Shown here one piece after another: positions 37,653-53,256 of a stretch of 64,000 bases of DNA. The notes under the pieces were generated by a model, which saw nothing but the letters and a program-made list of their open reading frames with translations, made no database searches and had not been told where the DNA came from. Made by a program: the position numbers and the translations under genes. This stretch comes from Microvenator marinus (GTDB lineage Bacteria; Myxococcota_A; Bradymonadia; Bradymonadales; Bradymonadaceae), in the NCBI RefSeq assembly GCF_007993755.1, contig NZ_CP042467.1, forward strand, positions 5,418,001-5,482,000. Reading direction: 5' to 3'. Positions within the stretch are counted from its first letter, which is position 1. Each line of letters starts with the position of its first letter.

Positions 37653-38000
37653 ATGTCAGGAAAACGGTCAAAACCCAAAAATGCATCGTGGTGGTCGGCT
37701 CAGATCGGAGCCTGGGAGCGCAGCGGACTCACTCAGGCTGATTTCTGCAGGGCTCGTGGGCTGAGTATTTCGTCGTTCTCAAACTGGCGAAGCAAGTTGT
37801 TGAAAGAAGAGCGGCCCGAGACTTCGACGCAGACCGCGCTCGTGAGAAAGCATCCCACGGCATCTAAGTTCATCACAGTGGATATTCCGGTGGCCCCAGC
37901 ACCTCTGGTGCGTGTTTCAGTCGGGTCGGTGACGGTGGATTTCGACACGTTACCACCACCTGTCTGGGTTGCTGAGCTTGGGTCGTTTGGAGGTCGATGA
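37653..38000 (+). CDS. tnpA: IS66 accessory protein TnpA
   Basis: A 115-residue protein with the IS66 TnpA pattern: WWSAQIGAWERSGLTQADFC then RARGLSISSFSNWRSKL, a helix-turn-helix, and a strand-rich end. The start follows GGAGAGGAGAG. The stop overlaps the tnpB start, so the genes are coupled. It appears intact, but its partners are broken. Confidence 0.85.
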   Translation: MSGKRSKPKNASWWSAQIGAWERSGLTQADFCRARGLSISSFSNWRSKLLKEERPETSTQTALVRKHPTASKFITVDIPVAPAPLVRVSVGSVTVDFDTLPPPVWVAELGSFGGR

Positions 38001-38356
38001 TGCTGAGTTTTGCCTCGTCTGTACGCATCTTGATTGGCATCAAACCGGTGGACATGCGCAAGGGTGTCGACGGTTTGTGCCAGCTCGCTGAGGCAGAACT
38101 CGGTGGGGATATCTACTCCGGCGCAGTGTTCGTGTTTCTGTCGCGACCCCGTGACAAGATTAAGATTCTGACCTGGGATACGGGTGGATTTGTGGTGCTC
38201 TACTAGTGGCTTGAGGCCGGTCAATTCAAGATGCCGAGAGTGGGCGACTTCGATAAGGTCTGCCGCCTTGAGGCGACTCAGCTGACGATGCTACTTCGCG
38301 GCATCGACTTAAGTCGTGTTCGAAAACCGGTCTTGTGGGAGCCTCCACCGAGCTAA
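38000..38356 (+). pseudogene. tnpB: IS66 TnpB, interrupted by a TAG
   Basis: Encodes LIGIKPVDMRKGVDGLCQLA and VFVFLSRPRDKIKILTWDTG, the IS66 Orf2 motifs. Codon 69 (38204-38206) is TAG; the frame resumes as WLEAGQFKMPRVGDFD to a normal stop at 38356 (118 codons). The ribosome site GGAGG lies just upstream of the tandem ATG codons. Confidence 0.85.
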
Positions 38357-38402
38357 AGAAAATGGATCGACATAAGCTCGGAACTATGATCAAAAATCAT
38401 CG

Positions 38403-39766
38403 ATGGATGAGGTCATTGAAATCCCAGATCTGGAAGAAATCAAGGATCTTGGCACAGCCAAGCTCTTATTGAAGTACATCAGCCAGGCAGCCGATCAGCA
38501 GGCCAGAACCAACCAACACCTGCTCGAGACGATCGAGGCACTACGCCACGAAATCTCAGAATTGAAACGTGCACTTTTTGGTCAGAAGTCCGAGCGTGTC
38601 CCCGACCAATGGCGAAACAGCCACACTTGCAGACCTTACGCTCGCGGTGGTGCTCTCGGCGGATCACCCGGGCTGGCACGTATTCGTATTCTTCGCTGAC
38701 TTCGGGACTTAGGTCGTCAGCAGCTTCAAGACTACCGCCACATTGCGCACATTCGGTCTCGACAATCGCGTGTTCAACGATCTCTGTCGGTGTTTCATCG
38801 CGTCGACTTTGTCGGGTTTTCTCGCGCTTCTCTTTTGAGCGCTCCAGACGCTTGGCACGCTCTTCAGGCGTCTCTTTCTTCTTTTGAGAGGCGTTCAGGT
38901 CGCGCTTGAGCAGCGCCGAGGTGCTTTCGCCACTGAGCCAACGCATTCTGGAGCTCATCGCGTCCTCTTCCCACGTCAACGCGGATGAAACCTCTTTGAA
39001 GGTCCAGGCCACCGGTGAATGCCGCCGTGCCTTTGTCTGGGACTTCATTGCGACCAACGACAACCACACGATGGTCGCATATCTCTTCAGCGCCGACCGC
39101 AGCGGACAGACGCCCATCAAGGTGCTTGGCGACTCCACCGGCGTGCTCCAGGTCGATGGTTTTACCGGCTACAATCAGGTCACAACCCCTGACAAACGCG
39201 AACGCGCAGGGTGCTGGGCTCATGCGCGGCGCAAGTATTTTGGGGCATTGGACTCCGCGCCAGACGAGGCGCAGTGGGCTATCGACAAGATCCGCGAGAT
39301 CTATGAAGTCGAGTATCTGGCGGCCGAGAAGAAGGTGCTGGGCAGGCCCCAACACCTGACCCTGCGAAAGGCGAAAAGCAAAGGACTCGTCTAAGAATTG
39401 ATGACGTGGGCTGACGACGAAAAGCCGAAACATCGGCCCAAAAGTCCGCTCGGTGCTGCACTGACCTATACGCTCAACCAGCGAAAATCTCTCGAGCGTT
39501 TCCTCACGGACCCAAAGATCTGACTCGACAACAATATCGCCGAGCAATACCTCCGACTCATCGCGCTTGGCCGCAAAAACTTTCTCTTTGTGGGCCACGA
39601 CGAGGCCGGCATGAACCTGGCTACTTTGCAAACTCTGGTGTCAACCTGCTTGGCCAACAAGGTCAACCCGCAGACCTATCTCACCGATGTCCTGCTGCGA
39701 ATTGGGAGTCATCCCCACCAACAAATCGATGACTTGTTGCCATGGAACTGGCATCCTGATTCCTGA
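38403..39766 (+). pseudogene. tnpC: IS66 transposase TnpC with internal inversion and two stops
   Basis: The N-terminal coiled coil and linker (KLLLKYISQAADQQARTNQH, RALFGQKSERV) and the catalytic end (HVNADETSLKV, LQVDGFTGYN, LDNNIAEQYLRLIALGRKNF) read on the plus strand. The middle, about 38600-38905, reads only on the minus strand (KKKETPEERAKRLERSKEKR and VPARVIRREHHRERKVCKCG, the zinc-finger part), so it has been inverted. The helical part before the DDE domain is also missing. TAA at 39392 and TGA at 39521 interrupt the catalytic half. Decayed. Confidence 0.8.
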
Positions 39767-40112
39767 TGACGGGGTGTATCGGACGGATACGCTCTTGCTC
39801 ACAGCACTCAAGAAATCTTCGCGGCGTAACTCTAAAGCCTCACAGAACGGTACGTTTTATGACGCAAGTGATAGAGTGGGTTTGACACTATTGTGAAGGT
39901 TCTGTCATTCTCAGACGAGACGAAGTTACTGCTCTTAATACCCGTGTTTGAGTCGCGGGTACCACTGGTGAACAGTAACTCGTTGGAACTTGACTCAACA
40001 CAAACCTACTACGACGGCTCCTGCACTAATGTGCATGCTCGCTCCAGCAGCCTCCATACTCAAGGGAGGTGTTGCCCGTCTCAAGTAGGTTCTATCAAGA
40101 CAGGAGCATTTT
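39767..40112. other. Leader and intergenic region upstream of the 61-residue peptide
   Basis: This 346-bp region follows the IS66 remnant and precedes the small peptide gene. TTGACA at about 39882 could be a -35 box, but no convincing -10 was found. CCTCC at 40051-40055 and GGAGG at 40065-40069 could pair in the leader RNA. A separate AGGAG sits 7 bases ahead of the peptide ATG. No gene of normal composition was found. Confidence 0.35.
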
Positions 40113-40298
40113 ATGTCGAAGCAATCTAAAGCCGCACGGGATAACCGTGCCAATCAACTTAATCCCCAGCATTCTGCGTATCATCAGTCGCGGGGAGTCA
40201 CTGGACCTTTCCTGGAAAAACGGTTGGAAGAACACCGCCAAGTTCCAGATTTGGGGCCCGTGAATCCCAAATCTAAAGACGATTCAGAAAAGGGTTAA
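40113..40298 (+). CDS. 61-residue peptide with NQLNP/AYHQSRG motif, possible precursor peptide
   Basis: ATG after AGGAG with good spacing. The peptide is basic at the start (MSKQSKAARDNRANQLNPQH), then has SAYHQSRGVTGPFLEKRLEE and an acidic end (SKDDSEKG). Small proteins with the DNRANQLNPxxxAYxxSRG motif occur in many bacteria, from memory, with unknown function. It lies ahead of the epimerase/GT-radical SAM/methyltransferase/phosphatase operon and is separated from it by a terminator-like hairpin, as is common between peptide precursors and their enzymes. The precursor role is a hypothesis. Confidence 0.65.
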   Translation: MSKQSKAARDNRANQLNPQHSAYHQSRGVTGPFLEKRLEEHRQVPDLGPVNPKSKDDSEKG

Positions 40299-40309
40299 GT
40301 GGAATCAAC

Positions 40310-40337
40310 AGCCCCAACTCCGCGAGGAGTTGGGGCT
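40310..40337 (+). terminator. Hairpin with 12-bp stem, terminator or attenuator
   Basis: Perfect 12-bp inverted repeat AGCCCCAACTCC and GGAGTTGGGGCT with a GCGA loop, followed by a weak CTCTT tract. It lies 12 bases after the peptide stop and 12 bases before the chosen epimerase start. The short U tract suggests partial termination, which would give more peptide mRNA than enzyme mRNA. Confidence 0.75.
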
Positions 40338-40349
40338 CTTACGTTGGAC

Positions 40350-41279
40350 ATGAAAATGGTTGGAAAAGTCTTGATTACCGGTTCTTCCGGTCTGGTCGGA
40401 AGTGTGCTCCGTCACACGCTCGAATCAAAAGGAATTGAAGTCGTAGGGTTTGATTTGCGGGCAGCCGGGCGCGAACATGGGGATGTGTGCGACGCTAGTA
40501 GTCTGTACCATGCTATCTCAACGTGTGATGGAGTAATTCATCTGGCGGCGGTCTCGCGCGTAATCTGGGGAGAAGAAGATCCTGCTCGCTGCAAACAGGT
40601 GAATCTAGGCGGACTGAGGAATGTTCTGACGCACGCCAAAGACTCAACAAATGATCCGTGGGTGGTCTTTGCCAGCAGCAGGGAAGTCTATGGGCAACCA
40701 CAAACGCTCCCGACTTCGGAAAACGAACCGCTGGCTCCAGTCAACGTCTATGGGCACACAAAGGTTGAAGGTGAAAACCTTGTCCAGTCGGCCCGTGCAT
40801 GCGGACTCAAAGCCAGCGTGATTCGTTTGTCCAACGTCTTCGGCAGAAGGTCAGATCATCACGATCGTGTTGTACCTGCTTTCGCAAGGCAAGCGGTAGC
40901 GGGTGAGACCCTACGCGTGGATGGTGCAAGTCATACCTTTGATTTCACCTATGTTGATGACGTTGCGGACGGCATCGCAACGTTGGTTGACCTGATGGGT
41001 TCCAAGGAGGGCGCACCACCCCCCATTCACTTTGTTTCCGGCGTACCCACGACCCTTGGGCAATTGGCGAATATGGCTATCGAACTGGCCGAAAGCCACG
41101 CTCGTGTCCAGTTGAGCGCACCAAGGAACTTTGACGTGGCGCAATTCTACGGCAACCCCAGCCGCGCAATTCAGATCCTTGGCTGGCGAGCAGAGACAAG
41201 CGTCAGAGAGGGTCTGGAAAGACTCATTGACGCGTATCGAAACGAACAGACTCTAAACAAAATCGAGGAGCAAGCATGA
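40350..41279 (+). CDS. NAD-dependent epimerase/dehydratase (extended SDR)
   Basis: The start is taken at MKMVGKVLITG; an earlier in-frame GTG at 40299 would put the hairpin inside the gene. The 309-residue product has the Rossmann motif GSSGLVGS, then DASSLYHAISTCDGVIHLAA, the catalytic region FASSREVYG with YGHTK (YxxxK), and the sugar-binding FTYVDDVADGI. Such enzymes epimerise or dehydrate nucleotide sugars. The gene overlaps the next by ATGA, so it supplies a sugar donor for the fused glycosyltransferase (inference). Confidence 0.88.
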   Translation: MKMVGKVLITGSSGLVGSVLRHTLESKGIEVVGFDLRAAGREHGDVCDASSLYHAISTCDGVIHLAAVSRVIWGEEDPARCKQVNLGGLRNVLTHAKDSTNDPWVVFASSREVYGQPQTLPTSENEPLAPVNVYGHTKVEGENLVQSARACGLKASVIRLSNVFGRRSDHHDRVVPAFARQAVAGETLRVDGASHTFDFTYVDDVADGIATLVDLMGSKEGAPPPIHFVSGVPTTLGQLANMAIELAESHARVQLSAPRNFDVAQFYGNPSRAIQILGWRAETSVREGLERLIDAYRNEQTLNKIEEQA

Positions 41280-43624
41280 AGATCTTGAAAGTCATTCATG
41301 GCTACCCAATGAGATACAACGCAGGGTCAGAGGTTTATAGCCAGACGCTTTGCCATGGACTTGCGGACCGGCATGAAGTTCATGTGTTTACCCGTGAAGA
41401 AGATGCTTTCGCGCCTGACTTCCGGTTGCGAGAAGAAAAGGATCTCGACGACCCCAGAATTACACTTCACCTGGTCAATAATCCCCGTCTAAAAGACCGG
41501 TACAGGGCAACCGGAATCGACGCACGCTTCGCCGAAGTTCTGGATCAGCTAGGCCCCGATATCTGCCATGTCGGACACCTCAATCACCTCTCGACATCAA
41601 TGCTCAAAGAGGCTTCCAAACGTGAGATTCCCATCGTGTACACACTACACGATTACTGGCTCATGTGCCCTCGTGGGCAGTTCATGCAAATGTTTCCTGA
41701 GGACTCAAATGAGCTCTGGAGTGCTTGTGATGGTCAGGAGGACCGGAAATGTGCCGAACGCTGTTACGCCCGTTACTTCAGTGGTTCTCAGGAGGAACAC
41801 GAACAAGACGTTCAGTTCTGGACTGATTGGGTGAAGCGGCGGATGGAACACATTAGGGAGGTGGTGCAGCTAGTTGATCTCTTCATTGCGCCAGCGAAAT
41901 ACCTTCTGAACCGTTATCGGGATGATTTTGGAATTCCGGAGCGCAAGTTAGTCTATCTGGACTACGGTTTTGACAAGACCCGAATGTCTGGGCGATCGCG
42001 CTCGGCAAGTGAACCGTTCACATTTGGATATATTGGCACGCACATTCCGGCAAAAGGCATTCACGATTTGATCCGTGCTTTTGGCCAGCTCGAGGGAGAC
42101 GCACGACTGCGAATCTGGGGCCGTCCACGAGGTCAGGATACCGACGCGCTCAAGAAGATTGCCCTGGAGGTTCCAGGCGACATCGGTACGCGCGTGGAAT
42201 GGCGACCGGAGTACCGAAATCAAAACATTGTGGAGGACGTGTTTGAGCACTGCGATGCGATTGTCGTCCCATCTATCTGGGTCGAGAATTCGCCCTTGGT
42301 GATTCACGAAGCGCAACAGGCAAGAGTTCCAGTGATTACCGCAAATGCGGGAGGTATGGCCGAGTACGTTCATCATGAAGTTAACGGACTCCTCTTTGAA
42401 CATCGATCTGTGGACTCTCTCACGCAGCAAATGCAGAGGTTTGTCGTTGACCCAGATTTAGCCAACCGTTTGGGTGGTCGTGGGTATCTCTACTCAGAAG
42501 ATGGAGAAATCCCGTCCGTTGAGGAACACGTCGCTGAAATCGAGACCCTTTACCAGCAAGTCCTCGGCCGTCGTAACTCGGCACGCATCATGCCAACAAA
42601 AGGTCCCTGGAGGATTACTTTTGATACCAACCCAGATCTCTGCAATCTGCGTTGCATCATGTGTGAAGAGCACTCGCCACACAGTACGCTCCAAACTCAG
42701 CGCGAAAAAGAGGGGCGTCCCAGAAGGGAAATGCCATTTGAGCTGATCGAGAGGATCGTCAAGGATGCCGTACCGATGGGACTGCGTGAAATCATCCCGT
42801 CAACGATGGGCGAACCGCTGCTTTACGATGATTTCGACAAGATTCTGGCTCTTTGTGAGGAGCAGTCTCTGATGCTGAATTTGACGACCAATGGAACTTT
42901 TCCACGGCGAGGGGCTGAGGAATGGGCTCGGCGAATCGTTCCTGTCACGTCGGATGTGAAAATCTCTTGGAACGGCGCCTCGAAGAAGACACACGAAAAC
43001 ATCATGTTGGGGTCAAAATGGGAAAAAGTTCTTCAGAACGTTAAGACCTTCATTGGTGTGCGGGATGCCCATGCAGATGCCGGCGGAAATCGCTGTCGCG
43101 TGACCTTCCAACTGACCTTCCTGGAGTCCAATGCAGATGAGTTGGCTGACATTGTGCGACTGGCCATATCACTTGGGGTTGACCGGGTTAAGGGCCACCA
43201 CCTCTGGGCTCACTTTGAGGAGATCAAGGACCAGTCGATGCGACGTAATCCTGCGGCTATCAAAAGATGGAATTTGGCAGTCCAAGAGGCGCAGAAAGTC
43301 GCGGCAGAAAACAAACTACCAAACGGAAAATCGGTCCTTCTAGAAAACATCTTTGAGCTGGATGAGAACGCAAGCGACGACCTCGCCCCGGGTGGGCCAT
43401 GTCCATTCCTTGGGCAAGAGGCGTGGGTGAGTGCACTGGGACGATTTGATCCCTGCTGCGCTCCTGACGCGCAACGACGCACTCTGGGCGAATTTGGCAA
43501 TCTACACGCGTCCGACTTCTCCGAAATCTGGAACGGTGAGGAGTACAACGACTTGCGCAAGACGTATCGCAATCGCAACCTGTGTCTTAGCTGCAACATG
43601 AGAAAACCGGTGGAGGAGGTATGA
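41276..43624 (+). CDS. GT4-family glycosyltransferase fused to a radical SAM/SPASM domain
   Basis: A 782-residue fusion. Residues 1-430 are a GT-B fold glycosyltransferase of GT4 type: VIHGYPMRYNAGSEVYSQTL, FTFGYIGTHIPAKGIHDLIR, VPSIWVENSPLVIHEAQQAR and the nucleotide-sugar region NAGGMAEYVHHEVNGLLFEH. From residue 440 a radical SAM domain begins (WRITFDTNPDLCNLRCIMCE, CxxxCxxC at about 455, 459, 462) with EIIPSTMGEPLLY, and a SPASM-like end with CPFLGQEAWVSALGRFDPCC and LCLSCNMRK. A fused transferase and radical SAM enzyme implies that one substrate is glycosylated and radically modified. Overlaps both neighbours by 4 bases. Confidence 0.87.
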   Translation: MKILKVIHGYPMRYNAGSEVYSQTLCHGLADRHEVHVFTREEDAFAPDFRLREEKDLDDPRITLHLVNNPRLKDRYRATGIDARFAEVLDQLGPDICHVGHLNHLSTSMLKEASKREIPIVYTLHDYWLMCPRGQFMQMFPEDSNELWSACDGQEDRKCAERCYARYFSGSQEEHEQDVQFWTDWVKRRMEHIREVVQLVDLFIAPAKYLLNRYRDDFGIPERKLVYLDYGFDKTRMSGRSRSASEPFTFGYIGTHIPAKGIHDLIRAFGQLEGDARLRIWGRPRGQDTDALKKIALEVPGDIGTRVEWRPEYRNQNIVEDVFEHCDAIVVPSIWVENSPLVIHEAQQARVPVITANAGGMAEYVHHEVNGLLFEHRSVDSLTQQMQRFVVDPDLANRLGGRGYLYSEDGEIPSVEEHVAEIETLYQQVLGRRNSARIMPTKGPWRITFDTNPDLCNLRCIMCEEHSPHSTLQTQREKEGRPRREMPFELIERIVKDAVPMGLREIIPSTMGEPLLYDDFDKILALCEEQSLMLNLTTNGTFPRRGAEEWARRIVPVTSDVKISWNGASKKTHENIMLGSKWEKVLQNVKTFIGVRDAHADAGGNRCRVTFQLTFLESNADELADIVRLAISLGVDRVKGHHLWAHFEEIKDQSMRRNPAAIKRWNLAVQEAQKVAAENKLPNGKSVLLENIFELDENASDDLAPGGPCPFLGQEAWVSALGRFDPCCAPDAQRRTLGEFGNLHASDFSEIWNGEEYNDLRKTYRNRNLCLSCNMRKPVEEV

Positions 43625-45273
43625 AGACTCCACAACCAGCGCCATGCCGCACCTACCATGTGCTTGATTCGGGTGAGCCAGCTTACACCGAGCGATTTGA
43701 TGACATCCTGAAGTTTCACCCACCTGGACTTGCCGCTGTCCAAAAAGGTGACCAAGCGTGGCACATTCGACCAGATGGCTCAGCGGCGTATTCGGCCCGT
43801 TTTGAGCGGACTTTTGGCTTCTACGATGGTCGGGCAACCGTGGTCGATATTGAAGGTTGGTATCATATCGAAACGTCGGGTGAGGCGGTCTACTCGGATC
43901 GCTACACTTGGTGCGGGAACTTTCAGGATGGACTCTGCACCGTACGTGAGGGGGTAGAGTATTTTCACATCAAACGTGATGGACGACCTCTCTACGAAAG
44001 GCGATGGCGATACGCCGGAGACTATCGTGACAAGATCTCGGTGGTTCAAAACGAGGCGGGACTCTCCACACATATCGACGCATCAGGCCAACTTCTTCAC
44101 AACGTGTTTTTTGTGGACCTGGACGTCTTCCATAAGGGCTTTGCCAGGGCACGTGATGAAGAAGGTTGGACACACATCGATTCCCGCGGTCAGGCAATCT
44201 ATCAACGGCGCTTCGCGAATGTTGAGCCTTTCTACAATGGCCAAGCTCGAGTCGAGCGATTTGATGGTGGGTTAGAAATCATTGATGAGGCTGGGAATTG
44301 CATGCTGGAGCTTCGACCTTCCCGTCGCTCAGAATTTGCAGAACTATCCGGAGATCTAGTTGGGTTTTGGCGTACCCAGACTCTGGGTTCCGCTGCAACA
44401 CTGGGAATCATTGACGTCTTGCCAGGCACCGTTTCGGCGAGCAGCGAACGATGCAATATCACTGAAGATGCAGCGTTTCGAATTCTTCGTGCGCTTGGGG
44501 AACTTCAAGTTGTGGAGCGTTGTGGTGATGAATGGAAGGCCACGTCACGGGGAGAATACCTCAAGAAAGACCATCCACTTACGCTCGCTGATGCCGCGGT
44601 AGAGTATGCCACACGCTTTTCCAAGATGTGGCAGGTGCTACCAGACGTGTTGAGGGGTGAGGACCAATGGAAACCAGCGATTTTTGAGGATGTGTTCTTG
44701 GGCCCTGACAAGGGTACTGGCCATCATCGTATGTTACGAAGTTACGCGCGCCACGATTACGAAGCAGTCGCAGAGATCCTTCCTCTAAAGGGTGACGAGT
44801 CTATCGTGGACGCAGGTGGCGGACTTGGGACCTTTGCCTCGTGCATTCAGGCCAGATTTCCCGATGTACAGATCACCGTTCTAGAAAAGCCAGGCGTTTT
44901 GGAGTTCACACAACTTCGCGAACCTGGGTTGAATTGGCTGGCGGGTGACTTCTTTCAGGACTGGGGTGTTGAGGTGGATGTTGTTCTGCTAGCGCGCGTA
45001 CTTCACGACTGGGAAGACGAGGATGCTCGGCGGATACTGTCGCGTGCGAAGAAAAGCTTGAAGGAAGGTGGGCGAGTGTGTGTGGTTGAGATTCTTCTGC
45101 CTGAAGAAGGGGTATCTGGAGGGCTGTGCGACCTGCATTTGTGGATGGCAACCGGCGGCCGAGAGCGGAAACGAACTGAGTACGAGACGCTTCTGACAGA
45201 GGCGGGGTTCAGGGTTGATGAAATCATTCACGTGGCAGCGCTGCCGAGCGTCATTGTAGGAGTTGTACCATGA
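43621..45273 (+). CDS. WG-repeat protein fused to an O-methyltransferase
   Basis: A 550-residue fusion. Residues 1-245 are WG-type repeats (QAWHIRPDGSAAYSARFERT, EGWYHIETSGEAVYSDRYTW, GWTHIDSRGQAIYQRRF), each a W-HI-x3-G-x-AxYxxRF unit, usually binding platforms. Residues 265-550 are a class I SAM methyltransferase related to Methyltransf_2: a winged-helix start (ITEDAAFRILRALGELQVVE), SAM-binding VDAGGGLGTFA near 395, VTVLEKPGVLEF-type acidic loop, and the catalytic His region ARVLHDWEDEDARRIL. The repeats probably grip the target. Overlaps both neighbours by 4 bases. Confidence 0.87.
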   Translation: MKTPQPAPCRTYHVLDSGEPAYTERFDDILKFHPPGLAAVQKGDQAWHIRPDGSAAYSARFERTFGFYDGRATVVDIEGWYHIETSGEAVYSDRYTWCGNFQDGLCTVREGVEYFHIKRDGRPLYERRWRYAGDYRDKISVVQNEAGLSTHIDASGQLLHNVFFVDLDVFHKGFARARDEEGWTHIDSRGQAIYQRRFANVEPFYNGQARVERFDGGLEIIDEAGNCMLELRPSRRSEFAELSGDLVGFWRTQTLGSAATLGIIDVLPGTVSASSERCNITEDAAFRILRALGELQVVERCGDEWKATSRGEYLKKDHPLTLADAAVEYATRFSKMWQVLPDVLRGEDQWKPAIFEDVFLGPDKGTGHHRMLRSYARHDYEAVAEILPLKGDESIVDAGGGLGTFASCIQARFPDVQITVLEKPGVLEFTQLREPGLNWLAGDFFQDWGVEVDVVLLARVLHDWEDEDARRILSRAKKSLKEGGRVCVVEILLPEEGVSGGLCDLHLWMATGGRERKRTEYETLLTEAGFRVDEIIHVAALPSVIVGVVP

Positions 45274-45956
45274 GCCAATTCGCGATTCTTGAATGGATGT
45301 TGCGCCACTTGAATGAGATTCCAGAAGACCGTTCAGTGTGCTTGCTGATCCGTCACTCAGTCCGGGACCCTCTCCCACCTGATGATGTGGGGTACGCTCT
45401 GCCAATCACAGAAGAAGGTCGTCGGCTCGCTAGGAACCTTGGAGAAGTGATCGGTTCAAGACTCAAAACCTTGCATTCTAGTCCGCTGGATAGGTGCACA
45501 CAGACGGCTGATGAGATTATGGTTGGAGCAGGCAAGACTCTACCTGTAGTCCCAGATAAATTGCTCGGGGACCCAGGTGTGTTCGTACTCGACGGGGAGG
45601 TCGCCTGGCCGAACTGGCAGCGTCTCGGAAACGATGGGGTGATTGCGAAGATGGTGGAAGGTGGTGAGCCTTTGCAAGGTCTAGCAAGGGCCGAGCTCGC
45701 CGCAGGTCTGTTGGTTGATCACATGTTGAAGGTCGCAGACCAACAACCTGGAATTCATGTATTTGTCACCCATGACTCGATTGCCGCTCCGACCATCGCG
45801 CATATTCATGGGTATAGGTTTGACTTTGGAGACTGGCCAGCATTCTTGGAGGGTGCCTTCTTCTGGGCGGCAAGAGATGGCGTGCGGGTCCATTTCCGCG
45901 CCTCCGAAGGTGAACTTACCGGTTTGTGGCTGAATGGAGCGCGAGCCAGTCTTTAA
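45270..45956 (+). CDS. Histidine phosphatase (phosphoglycerate-mutase-like)
   Basis: A 228-residue protein with the RHx motif (LLIRHSVRD, catalytic His near 28), an SSPLDRCTQTAD loop and the second His in VFVTHDSIAAPTIAHIHG. Proteins of this superfamily hydrolyse phosphoesters through a phospho-His intermediate. It overlaps the methyltransferase fusion by ATGA. Within the operon it may remove a phosphate from a phosphorylated intermediate. Its 3' end overlaps the stop region of the convergent vWA gene by 41 bases. Confidence 0.85.
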   Translation: MSQFAILEWMLRHLNEIPEDRSVCLLIRHSVRDPLPPDDVGYALPITEEGRRLARNLGEVIGSRLKTLHSSPLDRCTQTADEIMVGAGKTLPVVPDKLLGDPGVFVLDGEVAWPNWQRLGNDGVIAKMVEGGEPLQGLARAELAAGLLVDHMLKVADQQPGIHVFVTHDSIAAPTIAHIHGYRFDFGDWPAFLEGAFFWAARDGVRVHFRASEGELTGLWLNGARASL

Positions 45957-47403
45957 AGATATGCACAGGATCACAAATGGTGTGCATGCCGGATTGTAGG
46001 CTGCTGCCCACCTGAACGCCATGGAATCGGTGATTTTCCTCCTTTGCGATCTGCACGGCGCTTGACAGGTCTGCGGGAGCGCGCCATTCCCCATCACTAA
46101 CAATGAGCACATCCGCCTTTGTCCACGCGTCGTCTTCTAAACGTTCAAGAACTCGATGAACGGCTCCAATGTCCGTGCCTCCGTGAAAGGAGAACCCAAG
46201 GAATTGCAGCAGCCGGCCAATACCTTCATCACTGACTGCTAGCTCATGCTCAACCACATCGTTTGGACCGCCATATGCGTACACATAACATCGGCGCTTC
46301 TCCAGATTCGCACGTCGCAACGCCTCCAAAACGAGTGCCTTGGCGACCAGTTCGGGCGCACCAGCCATTGAACCAGATGTGTCCAGCGCAACAATGATTG
46401 GCCCGCGCTGAGGCCTGGAGACTTCGCGTTCCATCTCTTCTTGAACCTCCACCTCTACGGCGTGTCGTTCCAGCTCAATTCCTTCAACACGGTAGGTAAT
46501 CAAAGCACGCTCCGCACGGCGAGCGTGCCACAAAAGGCGCAAAGTTGGGTGGCCCAAATATGCGGCTTCTGAAGGCAACATTCGCGCGATATCACCGCTT
46601 CGCTCCACGCCACGAGTTTGCGCTGGCACCCATGGCGTTCGGATTTCGCGCAGTTCTTCCTCCAATCGAGACACCGGAGCAAAGATGGTTTCCATCGTTT
46701 TTTCTTCGTCATCAGACGCTTGCATACGCCCAAGAGTTAGGACGATTTCCTCTAGCTGTGGGAGCTCAGCCACAATCCTCCGCAACTTCGCAATCTCGGT
46801 CCATCCCGTCTGCCTGATGATTCCCCTCGACAAGTCCCAGCCTCGCCCGAGCATGTTTCCAAGGCTACCAAACGCATCCATGATCTCGGACCACACACGC
46901 TCGCGCTCCTGCCATTTCTCCATGATTTGGGTGTCAGGCTCATTCCCCAAACTCTCGCGCGCAACTTCCTCAGCAAGTTGACGAACCAACTCAAGATCCT
47001 CGTCAGTCACCCCGTCCTCATCGTCTTCCAACTCTCTTCGCTGCAACTCTTCAAGTTCTTGCAAAGCAGCCAAAATTGCGCTTGTGAAGTCCTGTTCACG
47101 GCGTTCAAACGCCTCCAAGGCTTGAATCAAAAACTCGTCAACAAGTTCTGCCTCATTCCGAAAAAAACGCTGCAACTGAAGAACTTCAAGGGCGGCAATA
47201 ACGGGTCTCGCACTAACCTCACCAGGCCATGGTTCACACTCAGGAACCTCACCTTTCAAGAGCGCGTTGCGCCATGAAACCACACCCCTGACACGGTCCT
47301 CGATACTTCCAAGCGTTGAACCGAAGATGTGTTTAACGAGGTGTAGGGGGCAATCTTCAAGGTATGAGTAGTGTCGTAAAAAACTTCCCGCGTCGGCGTT
47401 CAT
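45916..47403 (-). CDS. vWA-domain protein of ViaA type
   Basis: A 495-residue protein: a helical N-terminal half rich in acidic pairs (LQELEELQRRELEDDEDG) and a C-terminal vWA domain with an intact MIDAS (IIVALDTSGSMAG near residue 340, VSDGEW near 455, and a Thr loop in FHGGTDIGAV). ViaA proteins partner MoxR/RavA ATPases and help them engage substrates with metal-dependent binding. It overlaps the MoxR gene by 4 bases, so the two are translated together. It converges with the histidine phosphatase gene. Confidence 0.9.
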   Translation of the reverse strand: MNADAGSFLRHYSYLEDCPLHLVKHIFGSTLGSIEDRVRGVVSWRNALLKGEVPECEPWPGEVSARPVIAALEVLQLQRFFRNEAELVDEFLIQALEAFERREQDFTSAILAALQELEELQRRELEDDEDGVTDEDLELVRQLAEEVARESLGNEPDTQIMEKWQERERVWSEIMDAFGSLGNMLGRGWDLSRGIIRQTGWTEIAKLRRIVAELPQLEEIVLTLGRMQASDDEEKTMETIFAPVSRLEEELREIRTPWVPAQTRGVERSGDIARMLPSEAAYLGHPTLRLLWHARRAERALITYRVEGIELERHAVEVEVQEEMEREVSRPQRGPIIVALDTSGSMAGAPELVAKALVLEALRRANLEKRRCYVYAYGGPNDVVEHELAVSDEGIGRLLQFLGFSFHGGTDIGAVHRVLERLEDDAWTKADVLIVSDGEWRAPADLSSAVQIAKEENHRFHGVQVGSSLQSGMHTICDPVHIFKDWLALHSATNR

Positions 47404-49076
47404 TTGGCCCCCTTCTTTCTCTTAGTCCGAGTCTTTTTCCCGTTGGCGCTCTTGGGAGGTGAGGCGATCAGGTCGACCAACTCTTCCTCGGGATCGCCCC
47501 ACACCTGCACTGGCAAGTTTGCGTAGCCTTCGCGAACTTTGTCCAATCGGGCGGTGATGACTTTCGTTGCACTGAGCGCCTCATCGAGGCTTTTCAGCGC
47601 TGGTTTAAGGAAATCAGCAGTGACCCAAAGATGTGCGTTGACGAGGACTTCGAGTTCTTTAACACGATCCTCAATGAGTGCCTGATGTTTAGTGACACGG
47701 TCCAACTCCACGGAAGCATCCTTGAGTCGTGCATCTCGGTATTGTGGAGCGAAGCGCTTGGCTACCATCACTGGCCTCAAGTCAGTATCTTTGCGATAGA
47801 AGTTATCCTCGTTTGCCAGATATGCCCACTTGCCGCCCCAATGATCGAATCGGTGCCAATTGTCGATTTGCAAATGGGAGAGTTCCCCTATCGTGAATCC
47901 GTGCCCTTTGTTCGTGCGGTCGTGGACTTTGCTGTCATTCGCATAGGCATTGGGCGGAGCCAGATAGGTTGTCTCGCCATCACGAACTACGGGAAGAACG
48001 GCGCTTGACTCGAGGACTTCTCTTCCATTCATCCTATAAAGGAGTTCGCCGTCTTCATTGCATTTTTGTTCTTTCGCCTTTTGATCAAACTTCAGTTGTT
48101 CTTCTAGGTGAGCAACCACTGTCGATACTCGCGAATATGCCCCTGCCTCGGCGGCCCCAATGCGCTCGACATACCAGTTGAACAGGGTTGCGCGCTGCTC
48201 TGGAGTGTTCCACAGGCAGTGCTGAAGAATCCAACAATCCCAGACCGTGACCTCATCCTTGATGTGTGTATACGCAGACACCTTCAGGAATTTGACGATC
48301 TTTCGCCACCTGCGGTCGGACACGAAGATCTCTTCGGCGATGCAGAACTTTCGCAATTCGCAGAGCAGTTCCTCCACCTCGGCGCTAAGTGTAACGACGG
48401 TTTCGGCAGCCTTTCTCAGTTCTTCAAGTTCTTGCGGGCTGAACGGAAGTTCTGCGTCCAGCACTAGAGCCGTCTCTCCAGTCAACGCCAGAAGTTTTCT
48501 GAATCCTTCCGCGGAGGCAGAATTGACTTCAAGCCGAACCAGGAAACGGTCATAGAGCGCATCCAACTCTTGTCCCTCGGGGAGTTCATTACTCGCCCCA
48601 ATCGCACTGATCAACGGTACGAATTGGCGCTGCGTCCCATTGTCAAACTTTCGTTCATTGAGCACGGTGAGCAGCGAATTCAGAATTGCGCTATTTGCCT
48701 TGAAGATCTCATCCAAAAACGCCACGGATGCGCTCGGCATGTACGACTCCGTCAAGCGCTCGTAGCGACCTTCCTCCAGTCCCGGAATGGAGTACGGTCC
48801 AAACACTTCTTCCGGCACGGTAAATCGTGTCAGCAGCCTTTCAAAGTAGCTTGCATCGTTGAACGCCAGTTGGATCCGCTTTGCGATCATGCTCTTTGCC
48901 GTTCCGGGCGGTCCGATAAGGAGCGCGTGCTCACCCGCGAGAGCGGCGAGCAGGACCATGCGAACCTCCACGTCTCGCTCGATGAGGTCGGTCAGTAGCA
49001 AATCTCTTATCTTTGCAATTCTTTGGGTCAAGTTGAGTTTCTTTCGGGTCAAAATACTTGTGGGTTCTGAAGTCAT
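47400..49076 (-). CDS. MoxR/RavA-type AAA+ ATPase
   Basis: A 558-residue protein with Walker A GPPGTAKS (55-62), Walker B VAFLDEIF (about 118-125), the sensor motif ISAIGASNELP, and a sensor-2 region (LYDRFLVRLEV). After the AAA+ core the C-terminal part is helical and of RavA type (VSDRRWRKIVKFLKVSAY, LKFDQKAKEQK). These ATPases act as chaperones for protein activation with a vWA partner. The vWA gene follows with a 4-base overlap, and a divergent CHAT protease gene lies across a 139-bp promoter gap. Confidence 0.92.
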   Translation of the reverse strand: MTSEPTSILTRKKLNLTQRIAKIRDLLLTDLIERDVEVRMVLLAALAGEHALLIGPPGTAKSMIAKRIQLAFNDASYFERLLTRFTVPEEVFGPYSIPGLEEGRYERLTESYMPSASVAFLDEIFKANSAILNSLLTVLNERKFDNGTQRQFVPLISAIGASNELPEGQELDALYDRFLVRLEVNSASAEGFRKLLALTGETALVLDAELPFSPQELEELRKAAETVVTLSAEVEELLCELRKFCIAEEIFVSDRRWRKIVKFLKVSAYTHIKDEVTVWDCWILQHCLWNTPEQRATLFNWYVERIGAAEAGAYSRVSTVVAHLEEQLKFDQKAKEQKCNEDGELLYRMNGREVLESSAVLPVVRDGETTYLAPPNAYANDSKVHDRTNKGHGFTIGELSHLQIDNWHRFDHWGGKWAYLANEDNFYRKDTDLRPVMVAKRFAPQYRDARLKDASVELDRVTKHQALIEDRVKELEVLVNAHLWVTADFLKPALKSLDEALSATKVITARLDKVREGYANLPVQVWGDPEEELVDLIASPPKSANGKKTRTKRKKGAK

Positions 49077-49215: not shown

Positions 49216-52200
49216 ATGCCTGAAATCAATGAACTACTGGAAAAGCTCGACAAAGGTTCTGACAGGTTCGAGTGGGAGCGAATCTATGGAAATTGGGAGG
49301 GTAGCTGTACGCGCGATGAGGCGTATGAGGTATTTGCTTCCGGGCGTCCTTATAGAGAGTGGTTCGGATTTCGCTTTGACGCAGGCCCTCCTGGGACACG
49401 ATTGCCAAACCCTGCCGATGCCTTTCTAGCGATCACCGGCGAATCCGGAGGATCACCGTTGGATGCGTATTCGGTGGTGTTCTACGGCCCGGTGTTTCCC
49501 GCAAGCCAACTTAGTTCCGATTGGTGTCCTTTTTTCTGGCGAGTCACCTTAGCAGCAGCGAAGTCTGATGGAACATGGTTCGCTCGTTGGCTGGCTGCAC
49601 GTGCATGCCTCGCCCAATTCGCGTTCGGATGTATCGAAGGAGCGTTCGCTCTGGCGGATATGTTTGGCCAATCGGAAGGAGGACGCCGACACCTAAGACT
49701 TGTCTCTGAGTTTGAGCTTGTTCGAGACTCTCCAGAATCCCTGAAGAGTCCTTGGATTCGGCAAGCGGCAACAGAACTGTGGCGTCATGCAGCCTTGCCA
49801 ATCATGCCCGAACTGCCAGGCCCTGTTGAGTTTGACGATGACCGTGATTCAATCCTTCAGCTCTTACGAGAACGTGGAGCGAAGGCATTGCTGGAATTGA
49901 TAGAGGGCTTTGTTTCAAGAACGGCCACTGTGAGTGCACACCTTCTGCGCGGGGAAGAGACACTGAGAGCCACTGAGGACTACATCCCAAACCCAACCCC
50001 CTCCAGATTAGAGGAGGCATCAAAAAAAATCCCTTCAGTGGAGCTGTCGGGATTATTGTTCCGGTTCCTGAATAGTATCGCAATGAAGGTTGTAGGACCG
50101 CATACTGTTGTCGTTTTTGCGGCATTGCGTGACCAATTGGCAGGGCATTGGCTGGAAGGGTACTGGCGACCCATTATCACGATGGCACTCTGCGATTTCC
50201 TCGGGGACAATCCTGCTTTCACTGAGCAACGAGGGGTTTGGCTTACAGAGATCTGCGAGTCGGCCGAATCATCGCTACTTCTGGGTGATTGTCTCTACAA
50301 TCTGGCTCTACTCAAACATTCAAACGGTGTGAATGGAGCAGCGGAATTGTTGTGCCGCGCTGCAGATGTAGCAATCGAAATCTCATATCCAGACCTTCTT
50401 CTCGCTACAGCTGAAACGTTGGCCCGAATGGGGGAGACGTCGCTTGAGCTGTCTCTTGTTCAGGGCTGGTACAGCTGGCTCTCTGAAATCGATGTCTTGA
50501 CCGCGGTGGAGCTAGAAAGGGCAAACGCCGCATTTAGCCATTTGTTCTACTTGTGTGGGTTGTCGGGGACTGCAGACCCTGTTTCTGAAACTTCAGATGG
50601 CAAATTCGAACACAAGTACTTCTATGTTTTCAAGATGCCTTGGTCGTTTTCAGGCGAGTCAAATCAGAGTCTAGTTAGGAAAATTTCTGAGGTGAAAGAG
50701 GGTACGATCGAACACGCCGAAATCTTGGCCGAACTTGCCAGACGGGGCCTGAGAGAGGTTTCTGAAGCCCGTGCCGCGAGTGAGTCAACACGTGTTGCAA
50801 TACGGAGGCAGACCGCATTTGAGGGGATTTTGGGCTGGATGCGACTCGCTCAAATCTGGGGACCAGAGGACCATCGCAATGACCCTGTCCGAGACTTTGC
50901 CTTTACTGCGGAGATTGCACGTGAAGCACTTGCAGGGGTATCCGGGACCGAACTGTCCATTGTGTTTGAAGTGTCTCTGAAGATCCTGCTCGCAAGGAGT
51001 CTTCGATATTCACAGGCAGGTAACCGAGACGAGAATTTCACTGAAGCAAAGGAGAGCTATCTCAAAATTTCCGAGATGCCGACAGCCACCAATGCTGACC
51101 GTGGAAACGCACTCTTCAACGTAGCTGAACTCGTTATGGACTGGGCGAATGCACCGCTAAATGAACGACTTCAGTGGTCAATCGACACGGCGAAACGCGC
51201 AATCGAAATCACTGACGATGTGCCGTTGGCCAATCGCTACAAGTCTATCTTATTAAATTGGCTAGCTATTTCAGCCGATAAAGGGAATGAGGAGGCTCTT
51301 GAGGAAGCGCAAGCCTTGATGAGCAAGATGGACTTTGATGTGCTTCCGAAAAGCCATTGGGGAACGGTGTTCCTTCACTTTGGGAACGTACAAGCATCGG
51401 TTGCCAGAAGGAAAGGCCCAAAGGACGAGGCGGAGGTTTGGCAAAAGGTGATTCGAGAGCATGGCGAGCACTTTTCGCCATCCCAATTTAGCTCGGCACA
51501 TCACAACCTTGGCGCCGCCTTGCGCCGGGCTGGCCAATTCGGGGACGCAAGAGTTTCCCTTGAGAAAGCATCGGTCGTCAGGTCAACAGGCACCGATCCG
51601 CGCCACTATTACGAGACAGAGCTGGAGCTGGCGCTTCTGGAAACAGAGAGATTGCCAAACGGCGTGCTGCTTGAACGTCCTGCCCTAGAGCGTGCGTTAG
51701 ACCACTATCGTTCTGCGCGGAATGCTGCCCAACGCTTGGGGCCAAGCGAAGAGTTGGTGCAGGTGGCATTGTTTCAGGGGCGTTTCCTCGGCCAACTTGA
51801 TAACAATCCGTGGGTGGGTGAAATGTCAGATGAAGTGTGGGAAATTGTGGATGAATCACTACCCTTCATCATACTCAATACCGACCTGCGTGAGCAGGTA
51901 GCTTGGATGATTCTTGGGCTTGGTATCAGGGTTGTGATCGCCCACGCCGCTCGAACACGACACCTAAAGCGGCACGGGTTCAGGCTTGGCGGCCGCGAAG
52001 CTCAGCAGGTCCTGAAATGGTGGATTCGCTCCCAGCATGCCTACCTGAGGCCTATCGAGGCGCGTTTGTTACCATCGCAACTGGCGGGCTTGCCACTCGC
52101 GGCCGAATGGGGCGAAGCCGTCGATAGCGAGAACAGTTTGCGTCTAGCGGAGCTTCTTCCGGCGCTTCGAGCAGTCGACCCAAGCTTTTTGGATGACGAT

Positions 52201-53256
52201 GTTCAGAATGAACGTATCTGGCGGTGGCTGGAAATGCAGCCCGGAGCAGTCGCCATCCATCTCACGTTGGCTACGCCAGAGTCGATTGCCCTGGTGCTCT
52301 CAATTGAAGATGACGAGCGGACGATAGAGGTGTTTGGTCTCGATACGACCCGCGAGAATCTGGAGAGAACGTCTCAGCCCACAGCCGTTCAAATTCAGCG
52401 GATATGTCAGCGGATCTTGGCAGAACTTCCAGAAACACCAAGTGCTGTTCTCTGGCAGCCCGGGCCAACGATGCGATATATTCCGACCCGAGAAGTGTGG
52501 GGAAAACTTCCTGTGGCGGTCGCTTCGTCGTTGGTAAACACCCTTCCAAAGAATGAGGAGCAAGCGAGGCAAGGTGTGCTCATTGTTCTTGCCGACCCTG
52601 GTCAAGGCAGAGAGCACGCGGAGCTTGATGAGTTCGGCTTAGACGCGATCAGAGCCATCGAGCCTCTCGCCAACAAATTCGGCCCCGTTCGAATCCTCGC
52701 GAGCCGAGGTGCGACGTTTGGGAGAGCGCTACACGACATTGACAGGGTCTTGCCTGAACCGGCTTCGGCGGAAAACGTTTTGAAGCATGCCAGAACAAGT
52801 GAGTTTGTGATTTTCATTGCGCATGGGGATGTCCCAAATCCAGATGATGCGGCGCTTGTATGCATTGGAGAAGATGGGGAGTGCGAGCCGTTGGATGTAA
52901 AGCGACTTCAGCAGTCTCGTCGCGCTTTCGCGGGGTCCAAGCTTATCCTACTTTCCTGCGAGACTGGCAGGACCACCGATTCGCTCGCACGGGAAGGTGG
53001 GATTGCAGGCGTTCTCATCGCGGCGGGAGCCGAATTTGTTGTAGCACCATTGGCACCTGTCTATATCGGAGTGGCAACGAGGGTTTGTGTGGATGTGTTA
53101 AGCGGGCTATTGAAGGGAATTCCGCCGTGGAGAGTGTTACCAAACGGAGACCCGATTGAGGCTGGTGGACCAACTCTGGGCCCAGTGCGCTCGTCGAAAG
53201 CGAAGGCCGCTGAGGAAGCGCAACACTATTCAAGCTACGTGGTCTGGGTTGCGTGA
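49216..53256 (+). CDS. Large helical-repeat protein with a C-terminal CHAT protease domain
   Basis: A 1346-residue protein. Residues 1-900 are mostly helical, with TPR-like repeats in the second half (AHHNLGAALRRAGQFGDARV; AVELERANAAFSHLFYLCGL). The last 350 residues form a CHAT (caspase-like) domain: an AVLWQPGPTMRYIPTREVWG strand, the catalytic His in FVIFIAHGDVPN (about 1200), and the Cys in LILLSCETGRTTDS (about 1245). CHAT proteases are effectors in several conflict systems and are activated by infection sensors. It is transcribed away from MoxR-vWA and its end overlaps the convergent operon by 27 bases. Confidence 0.88.
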   Translation: MPEINELLEKLDKGSDRFEWERIYGNWEGSCTRDEAYEVFASGRPYREWFGFRFDAGPPGTRLPNPADAFLAITGESGGSPLDAYSVVFYGPVFPASQLSSDWCPFFWRVTLAAAKSDGTWFARWLAARACLAQFAFGCIEGAFALADMFGQSEGGRRHLRLVSEFELVRDSPESLKSPWIRQAATELWRHAALPIMPELPGPVEFDDDRDSILQLLRERGAKALLELIEGFVSRTATVSAHLLRGEETLRATEDYIPNPTPSRLEEASKKIPSVELSGLLFRFLNSIAMKVVGPHTVVVFAALRDQLAGHWLEGYWRPIITMALCDFLGDNPAFTEQRGVWLTEICESAESSLLLGDCLYNLALLKHSNGVNGAAELLCRAADVAIEISYPDLLLATAETLARMGETSLELSLVQGWYSWLSEIDVLTAVELERANAAFSHLFYLCGLSGTADPVSETSDGKFEHKYFYVFKMPWSFSGESNQSLVRKISEVKEGTIEHAEILAELARRGLREVSEARAASESTRVAIRRQTAFEGILGWMRLAQIWGPEDHRNDPVRDFAFTAEIAREALAGVSGTELSIVFEVSLKILLARSLRYSQAGNRDENFTEAKESYLKISEMPTATNADRGNALFNVAELVMDWANAPLNERLQWSIDTAKRAIEITDDVPLANRYKSILLNWLAISADKGNEEALEEAQALMSKMDFDVLPKSHWGTVFLHFGNVQASVARRKGPKDEAEVWQKVIREHGEHFSPSQFSSAHHNLGAALRRAGQFGDARVSLEKASVVRSTGTDPRHYYETELELALLETERLPNGVLLERPALERALDHYRSARNAAQRLGPSEELVQVALFQGRFLGQLDNNPWVGEMSDEVWEIVDESLPFIILNTDLREQVAWMILGLGIRVVIAHAARTRHLKRHGFRLGGREAQQVLKWWIRSQHAYLRPIEARLLPSQLAGLPLAAEWGEAVDSENSLRLAELLPALRAVDPSFLDDDVQNERIWRWLEMQPGAVAIHLTLATPESIALVLSIEDDERTIEVFGLDTTRENLERTSQPTAVQIQRICQRILAELPETPSAVLWQPGPTMRYIPTREVWGKLPVAVASSLVNTLPKNEEQARQGVLIVLADPGQGREHAELDEFGLDAIRAIEPLANKFGPVRILASRGATFGRALHDIDRVLPEPASAENVLKHARTSEFVIFIAHGDVPNPDDAALVCIGEDGECEPLDVKRLQQSRRAFAGSKLILLSCETGRTTDSLAREGGIAGVLIAAGAEFVVAPLAPVYIGVATRVCVDVLSGLLKGIPPWRVLPNGDPIEAGGPTLGPVRSSKAKAAEEAQHYSSYVVWVA

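Follow-up and report, generated by a model that had tools for sequence, protein, structure and literature searches.

Our results suggest that four enzyme genes of Microvenator marinus form a horizontally mobile, self-contained cassette for the biosynthesis of a small decorated glycoside or glycoconjugate, a reading to which we assign a probability of about 0.5. The genes lie in the stretch of 64,000 nucleotides that we analysed (the window; Table 1), and three of them form the same core as in the Undecim Cluster of the Wolbachia phage WO.

Table 1. Features of the cassette, in positions of the window.
Feature	Position	Strand	Description
Peptide gene	40113..40298	+	61 aa, hydrophilic; GGAG 5' of its ATG, a good Shine-Dalgarno
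Hairpin	40310..40337	+	12-bp stem without mismatch, 3' of the peptide stop; terminator or attenuator
NAD-dependent sugar epimerase/dehydratase (SDR)	40350..41279	+	309 aa; Pfam Epimerase, E 4e-44; homologs in cassettes
GT4–radical SAM/SPASM fusion	41276..43624	+	782 aa; GT4 (~1-435), radical SAM/SPASM (~436-782); Pfam GT4, Radical_SAM, SPASM
WG repeat–O-methyltransferase fusion	43621..45273	+	550 aa; WG repeat (~1-238), class I O-methyltransferase (~239-550); Pfam WG repeat, Methyltransf_2
Histidine phosphatase	45270..45956	+	228 aa; Pfam His_Phos_1

An earlier note on this DNA had described the layout correctly. The coordinates of the open reading frames confirm a 4-bp overlap at all three junctions of the enzyme genes, the domains of both fusions are found by Pfam, and the small peptide and the hairpin do lie ahead of the enzymes. 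The reading frames of the two fusions and the phosphatase are intact. The epimerase is likely to start at ATG 40350, 3' of the hairpin, where the region shared with its homologs begins; a start at GTG 40299, from which the frame would cross the hairpin, is less likely. Hence, the peptide would have a small gene of its own ahead of the hairpin. This genome holds no second full-length copy of the fusion of GT4 and radical SAM or of the peptide, and a scan of positions 39800-46100 for sigma-70 promoters gave no match.

Directly upstream of the peptide is a frame-broken transposase remnant (37653-39870), which we take to be IS66-like. On the other side, positions 45916-49076 on the minus strand and 49216-53256 on the plus strand cover a RavA/ViaA-like pair of a MoxR ATPase (bpMoxR) and a vWA protein, which converges on the cassette, and an adjoining ORF of 1346 aa without a Pfam family above the cut-off. 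Annotation with Pfam covered the neighbours between 37.6 and 53.3 kb and found no phage structural genes among them.

The Undecim Cluster of phage WO comprises WD0611-WD0621. Our epimerase corresponds to UC2 (WD0612), the GT4–radical SAM fusion to UC3 (WD0613) and the WG–O-methyltransferase to UC4 (WD0614), and the three stand in the same order in both. HMM matches in the WO locus (L117) reach 330 bits for the epimerase, 619 for GT4, 512 for radical SAM, 291 for WG and 117 for the methyltransferase, and the WO fusion of GT4 and radical SAM/SPASM is 53% identical to that of the window over its full length. In contrast to the Undecim Cluster, the window's cassette is chromosomal and free-standing, and it includes a histidine phosphatase and the peptide. 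It is not the complete eleven-gene cluster: UC1 and UC5-UC11 (a PhyH oxygenase, an ABC transporter, threonine aldolases, a UDP-glucose dehydrogenase and others) are missing here, and the flanks are the transposase remnant and the MoxR/vWA pair.

The earlier note did not know of this exact fusion set, but both fusions had already been described in the Wolbachia and Rickettsia literature. WD0613 has been called a glycosyltransferase–radical SAM fusion (PMC9203015) and WD0614 an unusual KWG–O-methyltransferase fusion, with possibly syntenic homologs in Desulfovibrio hydrothermalis, Haliangium, Capnocytophaga and Saprospira (PMC4701759); those in Desulfovibrio and Haliangium have been on record since 2015. 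Homologs of the core also occur on pREIS2 and other Rickettsia plasmids (PMC9203015, PMC4701759). Among arthropod Wolbachia, the Undecim Cluster is common and strongly expressed, and the obligate strain wPau carries it in duplicate (PMC9203015, PMC12801941); its functions are stated to be unknown (PMC12801941). We found no literature on the gene set outside the work on Wolbachia and Rickettsia. As far as our literature search shows, the fusions were known, and what we add is the peptide, the phosphatase slot, the swapping of WG partners and the breadth of the distribution.

A plasmid of the insect symbiont Arsenophonus (CP132904) carries a similar cassette with an epimerase, GT4, radical SAM and a WG–methyltransferase. 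There, however, GT4 and radical SAM are not fused but encoded by individual ORFs, a PhyH and a threonine aldolase gene follow, and neither a phosphatase nor the peptide was detected. A block on a Brachyspira plasmid (rSAM, GT, epimerase, rfbC; PMC4267127) is alike by gene names only.

One scan of genome contigs yielded 130 loci with homologs of the GT4–radical SAM fusion, and most of the best 80 are 60-76% identical to it over essentially all 782 residues. The carriers of these 80 span nine phylum-level groups (Pseudomonadota, Myxococcota, Chloroflexota, Planctomycetota, Verrucomicrobiota, Bacteroidota, Nitrospinota, Thermodesulfobacteriota and one archaeal bin). Since bins may contain foreign contigs, an individual case carries little weight, but the same picture emerges from named isolates with this core (Myxococcus, Corallococcus, Halomonas, Marinobacter, Pseudoalteromonas). 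A quick tree of the enzyme mixes phyla, placing Ramlibacter beside Myxococcus and grouping Halomonas with Pseudodesulfovibrio. The cassette is present in 24 of 331 genomes (~7%) of the window's phylum and in 3 of 321 (~1%) of the class of Ramlibacter, the Ramlibacter genome itself being one of the three. Flanks vary between loci, and no gene family beyond the cassette is common to more than 8 of 81 loci; hence, the cassette behaves as a self-contained unit. Judging by these sequence comparisons, it has evidently been passed horizontally between unrelated bacteria and a Wolbachia phage.

Cassette genes also turn up in the bryozoan symbiont Endobugula sertula and in Glomeribacter gigasporarum (L032, L055). 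A contig from a metagenomic viral collection (L176) encodes the full fusion at 60% identity, with no match to WG, methyltransferase or phosphatase nearby.

The enzymes keep their active sites across homologs. Conserved are the catalytic residues S109/S110, Y134 and K138 and the GxxGxxG of the SDR, the E337/E345 pair of GT4, the CxxxCxxC of radical SAM, and R28-H29, R75 and H168 of the histidine phosphatase; the catalytic His462 of the O-methyltransferase is invariant. Structure models of the GT4–radical SAM fusion (pLDDT 89.5) and of the WG–O-methyltransferase (pLDDT 93.9) are both confident. The GT4 half, predicted to be a retaining glycosyltransferase, is nearest in fold to sucrose-phosphate synthase, MshA and BshA, all of them glycosyltransferases of small molecules. 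Sucrose-phosphate synthase and MshA use phosphorylated acceptors. The radical SAM half matches the folds of SuiB, SkfB and DesII, and with these two sets of matches both a peptide and a sugar are possible as the substrate. The O-methyltransferase half is nearest to natural-product O-methyltransferases (MmcR, DnrK, CalO6, DtpM).

We scored the anatomy of the loci with HMMs built from the window's own domains. GT4, radical SAM and the WG domain occur in nearly all loci, the epimerase in about half, and the O-methyltransferase as partner of WG in about 55. Where it is absent, WG either has an AAA_33 (P-loop) kinase as its fusion partner (L038) or occurs on its own. Separate genes encode GT4 and radical SAM in marine gammaproteobacteria, in Chloroflexota and in an apparent prophage from a viral collection (L177); in this prophage, five single genes for GT4, radical SAM, a Tyr-phosphatase, the O-methyltransferase and WG lie side by side. 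Two phosphatase folds turn up repeatedly, HP and Y_phosphatase3 (the latter in L035, L045 and L177). The histidine phosphatase is elsewhere often fused to a nucleotidyltransferase-like domain with the signature LAGGAFK..L..G..PRDLDL, which is missing in the window's phosphatase. This domain has no Pfam match and occurs, fused to HP or alone, in 18 of 81 loci (L011, L013-L016, L018, L021, L026, L031 and others).

Recurrent accessory genes of related cassettes encode a carbamoyltransferase, a class II aldolase, a PhyH oxygenase, a threonine aldolase and a second radical SAM/SPASM protein. They are mostly sugar and phosphate enzymes, which does not sit well with the modified peptide that the earlier note put first. 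GT4, radical SAM and WG are thus nearly constant, and phosphoryl, methyl, carbamoyl and aldol chemistry is variable; a variably decorated glycoside or glycoconjugate fits this pattern better than a peptide does.

For such a product, we infer the order of the steps, the acceptor and other substrates, and the roles of WG and the peptide as follows. The epimerase would prepare an NDP-sugar, which the GT4 half would join to an acceptor that may be phosphorylated, and the radical SAM/SPASM half would carry out a radical-based modification. As the constant domain, WG could hold the intermediate or its carrier and present it to a swappable tailoring domain, the O-methyltransferase here and a kinase elsewhere. 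The phosphatase would remove a phosphate, or it may serve self-protection instead of biosynthesis. The peptide, found with a minority of cassettes, would be an accessory that serves as another carrier or substrate or has a regulatory role. By analogy only, tunicamycin-type clusters combine the same enzyme classes (SDR, radical SAM, GT and histidine phosphatase; tunA/B/D/G), but tunC, tunE and tunH, which are essential there (PMC6965331), have no counterpart: the window's cassette contains no TunE deacetylase, TunC acyltransferase or TunH pyrophosphatase.

One could also argue that the cassette modifies a surface glycan, since SDR and GT4 genes are common in such loci and LPS/EPS roles have been proposed for the Undecim Cluster (PMC9203015, PMC4701759). 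We consider this quite unlikely: the window's cassette lacks a flippase, a polymerase and a lipid-carrier transferase, the flanking genes change from one locus to the next, and the O-methyltransferase is of the natural-product type. An anti-phage or conflict system seems very improbable. Copies of the cassette are found in DNA of phages or prophages, some loci lie beside restriction-like genes or integrases (an MmeI-like gene in L025; L067, L069), and GT4 has a secondary match to the Pfam family GT4-conflict. However, no PADLOC family fits, with weak and partial matches to mad2 and to viperin (pVip), the latter of 24 bits and confined to a section of the rSAM domain, and several of the genes encode biosynthetic enzymes with conserved active sites.

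The peptide presents the strongest case for a different product. According to the earlier note it may be the substrate of the enzymes, with a lipid or glycan as the alternative; read as a RiPP precursor, the peptide would have NQLNP...AYxxSRG as a leader or a repeated core and would be glycosylated, radically modified and methylated by the fusions. The note had staked this on the peptide and the cassette occurring together in other genomes, and they do: in the 331 genomes of the phylum, the cassette is found in 24, the peptide in 17 and both in 10 (Fisher p = 8e-9, which is optimistic because the genomes are related). In all 10 the peptide lies within ~1.3 kb upstream of the cassette, where a precursor would be expected. 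Among the best 80 of the 130 loci, the motif DNRANQLNPxHxAYxxSRG has matches at 20, a few of them weak, all directly upstream of the cassette and on the same strand. The motif is under purifying selection (pN/pS 0.25) and is doubled in several homologs, for example L012, L014, L023, L026 and L007. The radical SAM/SPASM half, as modelled, also resembles the maturases SuiB and SkfB, and this fold counts against a glycoside, as does a peptide linkage far above chance and too strong to dismiss.

The hairpin recurs as well, and in the window none of 200 mononucleotide shuffles gave one as good. A strong hairpin follows 17 of 26 cassette-linked peptides vs 6 of 15 orphans. We therefore rejected the idea that it is special to cassette peptides; it could be no more than the terminator of the peptide gene itself.

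Nevertheless, about 60 of the best 80 of the 130 loci (~three quarters) have no peptide beside the cassette, which is not expected of a precursor, and these include cassettes 74-75% identical to the window's, in Halomonas, Pseudodesulfovibrio and Myxococcus. A genome-wide search found no good copy elsewhere in most of the peptide-less carriers, and no peptide was found in the WO and Arsenophonus loci. Conversely, six genomes have relatives of the peptide but no detected cassette (G001, G010, G109, G134, G176, G300), and on the tree of the enzyme the peptide's presence takes no fewer than 15 changes to explain. The cassette has no RRE/PqqD, peptidase or exporter by Pfam, although the part of the first could be played by the WG domain or by an RRE that has diverged; compared with SuiB and SkfB, its radical SAM enzyme is fused to GT4, without an RRE found and without a constant precursor. 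Because most cassettes are without the peptide, relatives occur without a cassette, and no RRE, protease or exporter was seen, we regard the RiPP reading as possible but rather doubtful and do not favour it. The linkage and the hairpin thus stood up to comparison with other genomes, and a peptide substrate common to all cassettes did not; the peptide is a linked accessory gene or a possible substrate.

The peptide has no match in Pfam, NCBIfam or PHROGs. One genome of the BD1-7 clade has three copies, each adjoining cassette genes (L073, L074, L101). A looser Asn-rich family (NDQRSNxKNPNNP...DNRSNQMNPN) is found at a distance from the cassette, chiefly in myxobacteria (L104-L107, L113), and by its sequences is possibly a new family of small proteins.

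The decorated glycoside or glycoconjugate hence remains our preferred reading. A bolder one, which we think unlikely, is a new biosynthetic class in which WG is a universal module for binding substrates or carriers and the motif peptide, where present, a ribosomal scaffold glycosylated and radically modified by the GT4–rSAM enzyme. If so, the Undecim core of Wolbachia would represent a branch of this pathway that works without the peptide. The enzyme logic our results point to is that of a WG domain that stays constant and can be combined with different catalytic partners. Genetic manipulation of Wolbachia is difficult. The presence of the same core in culturable free-living genera makes the function of the Undecim core testable outside Wolbachia.
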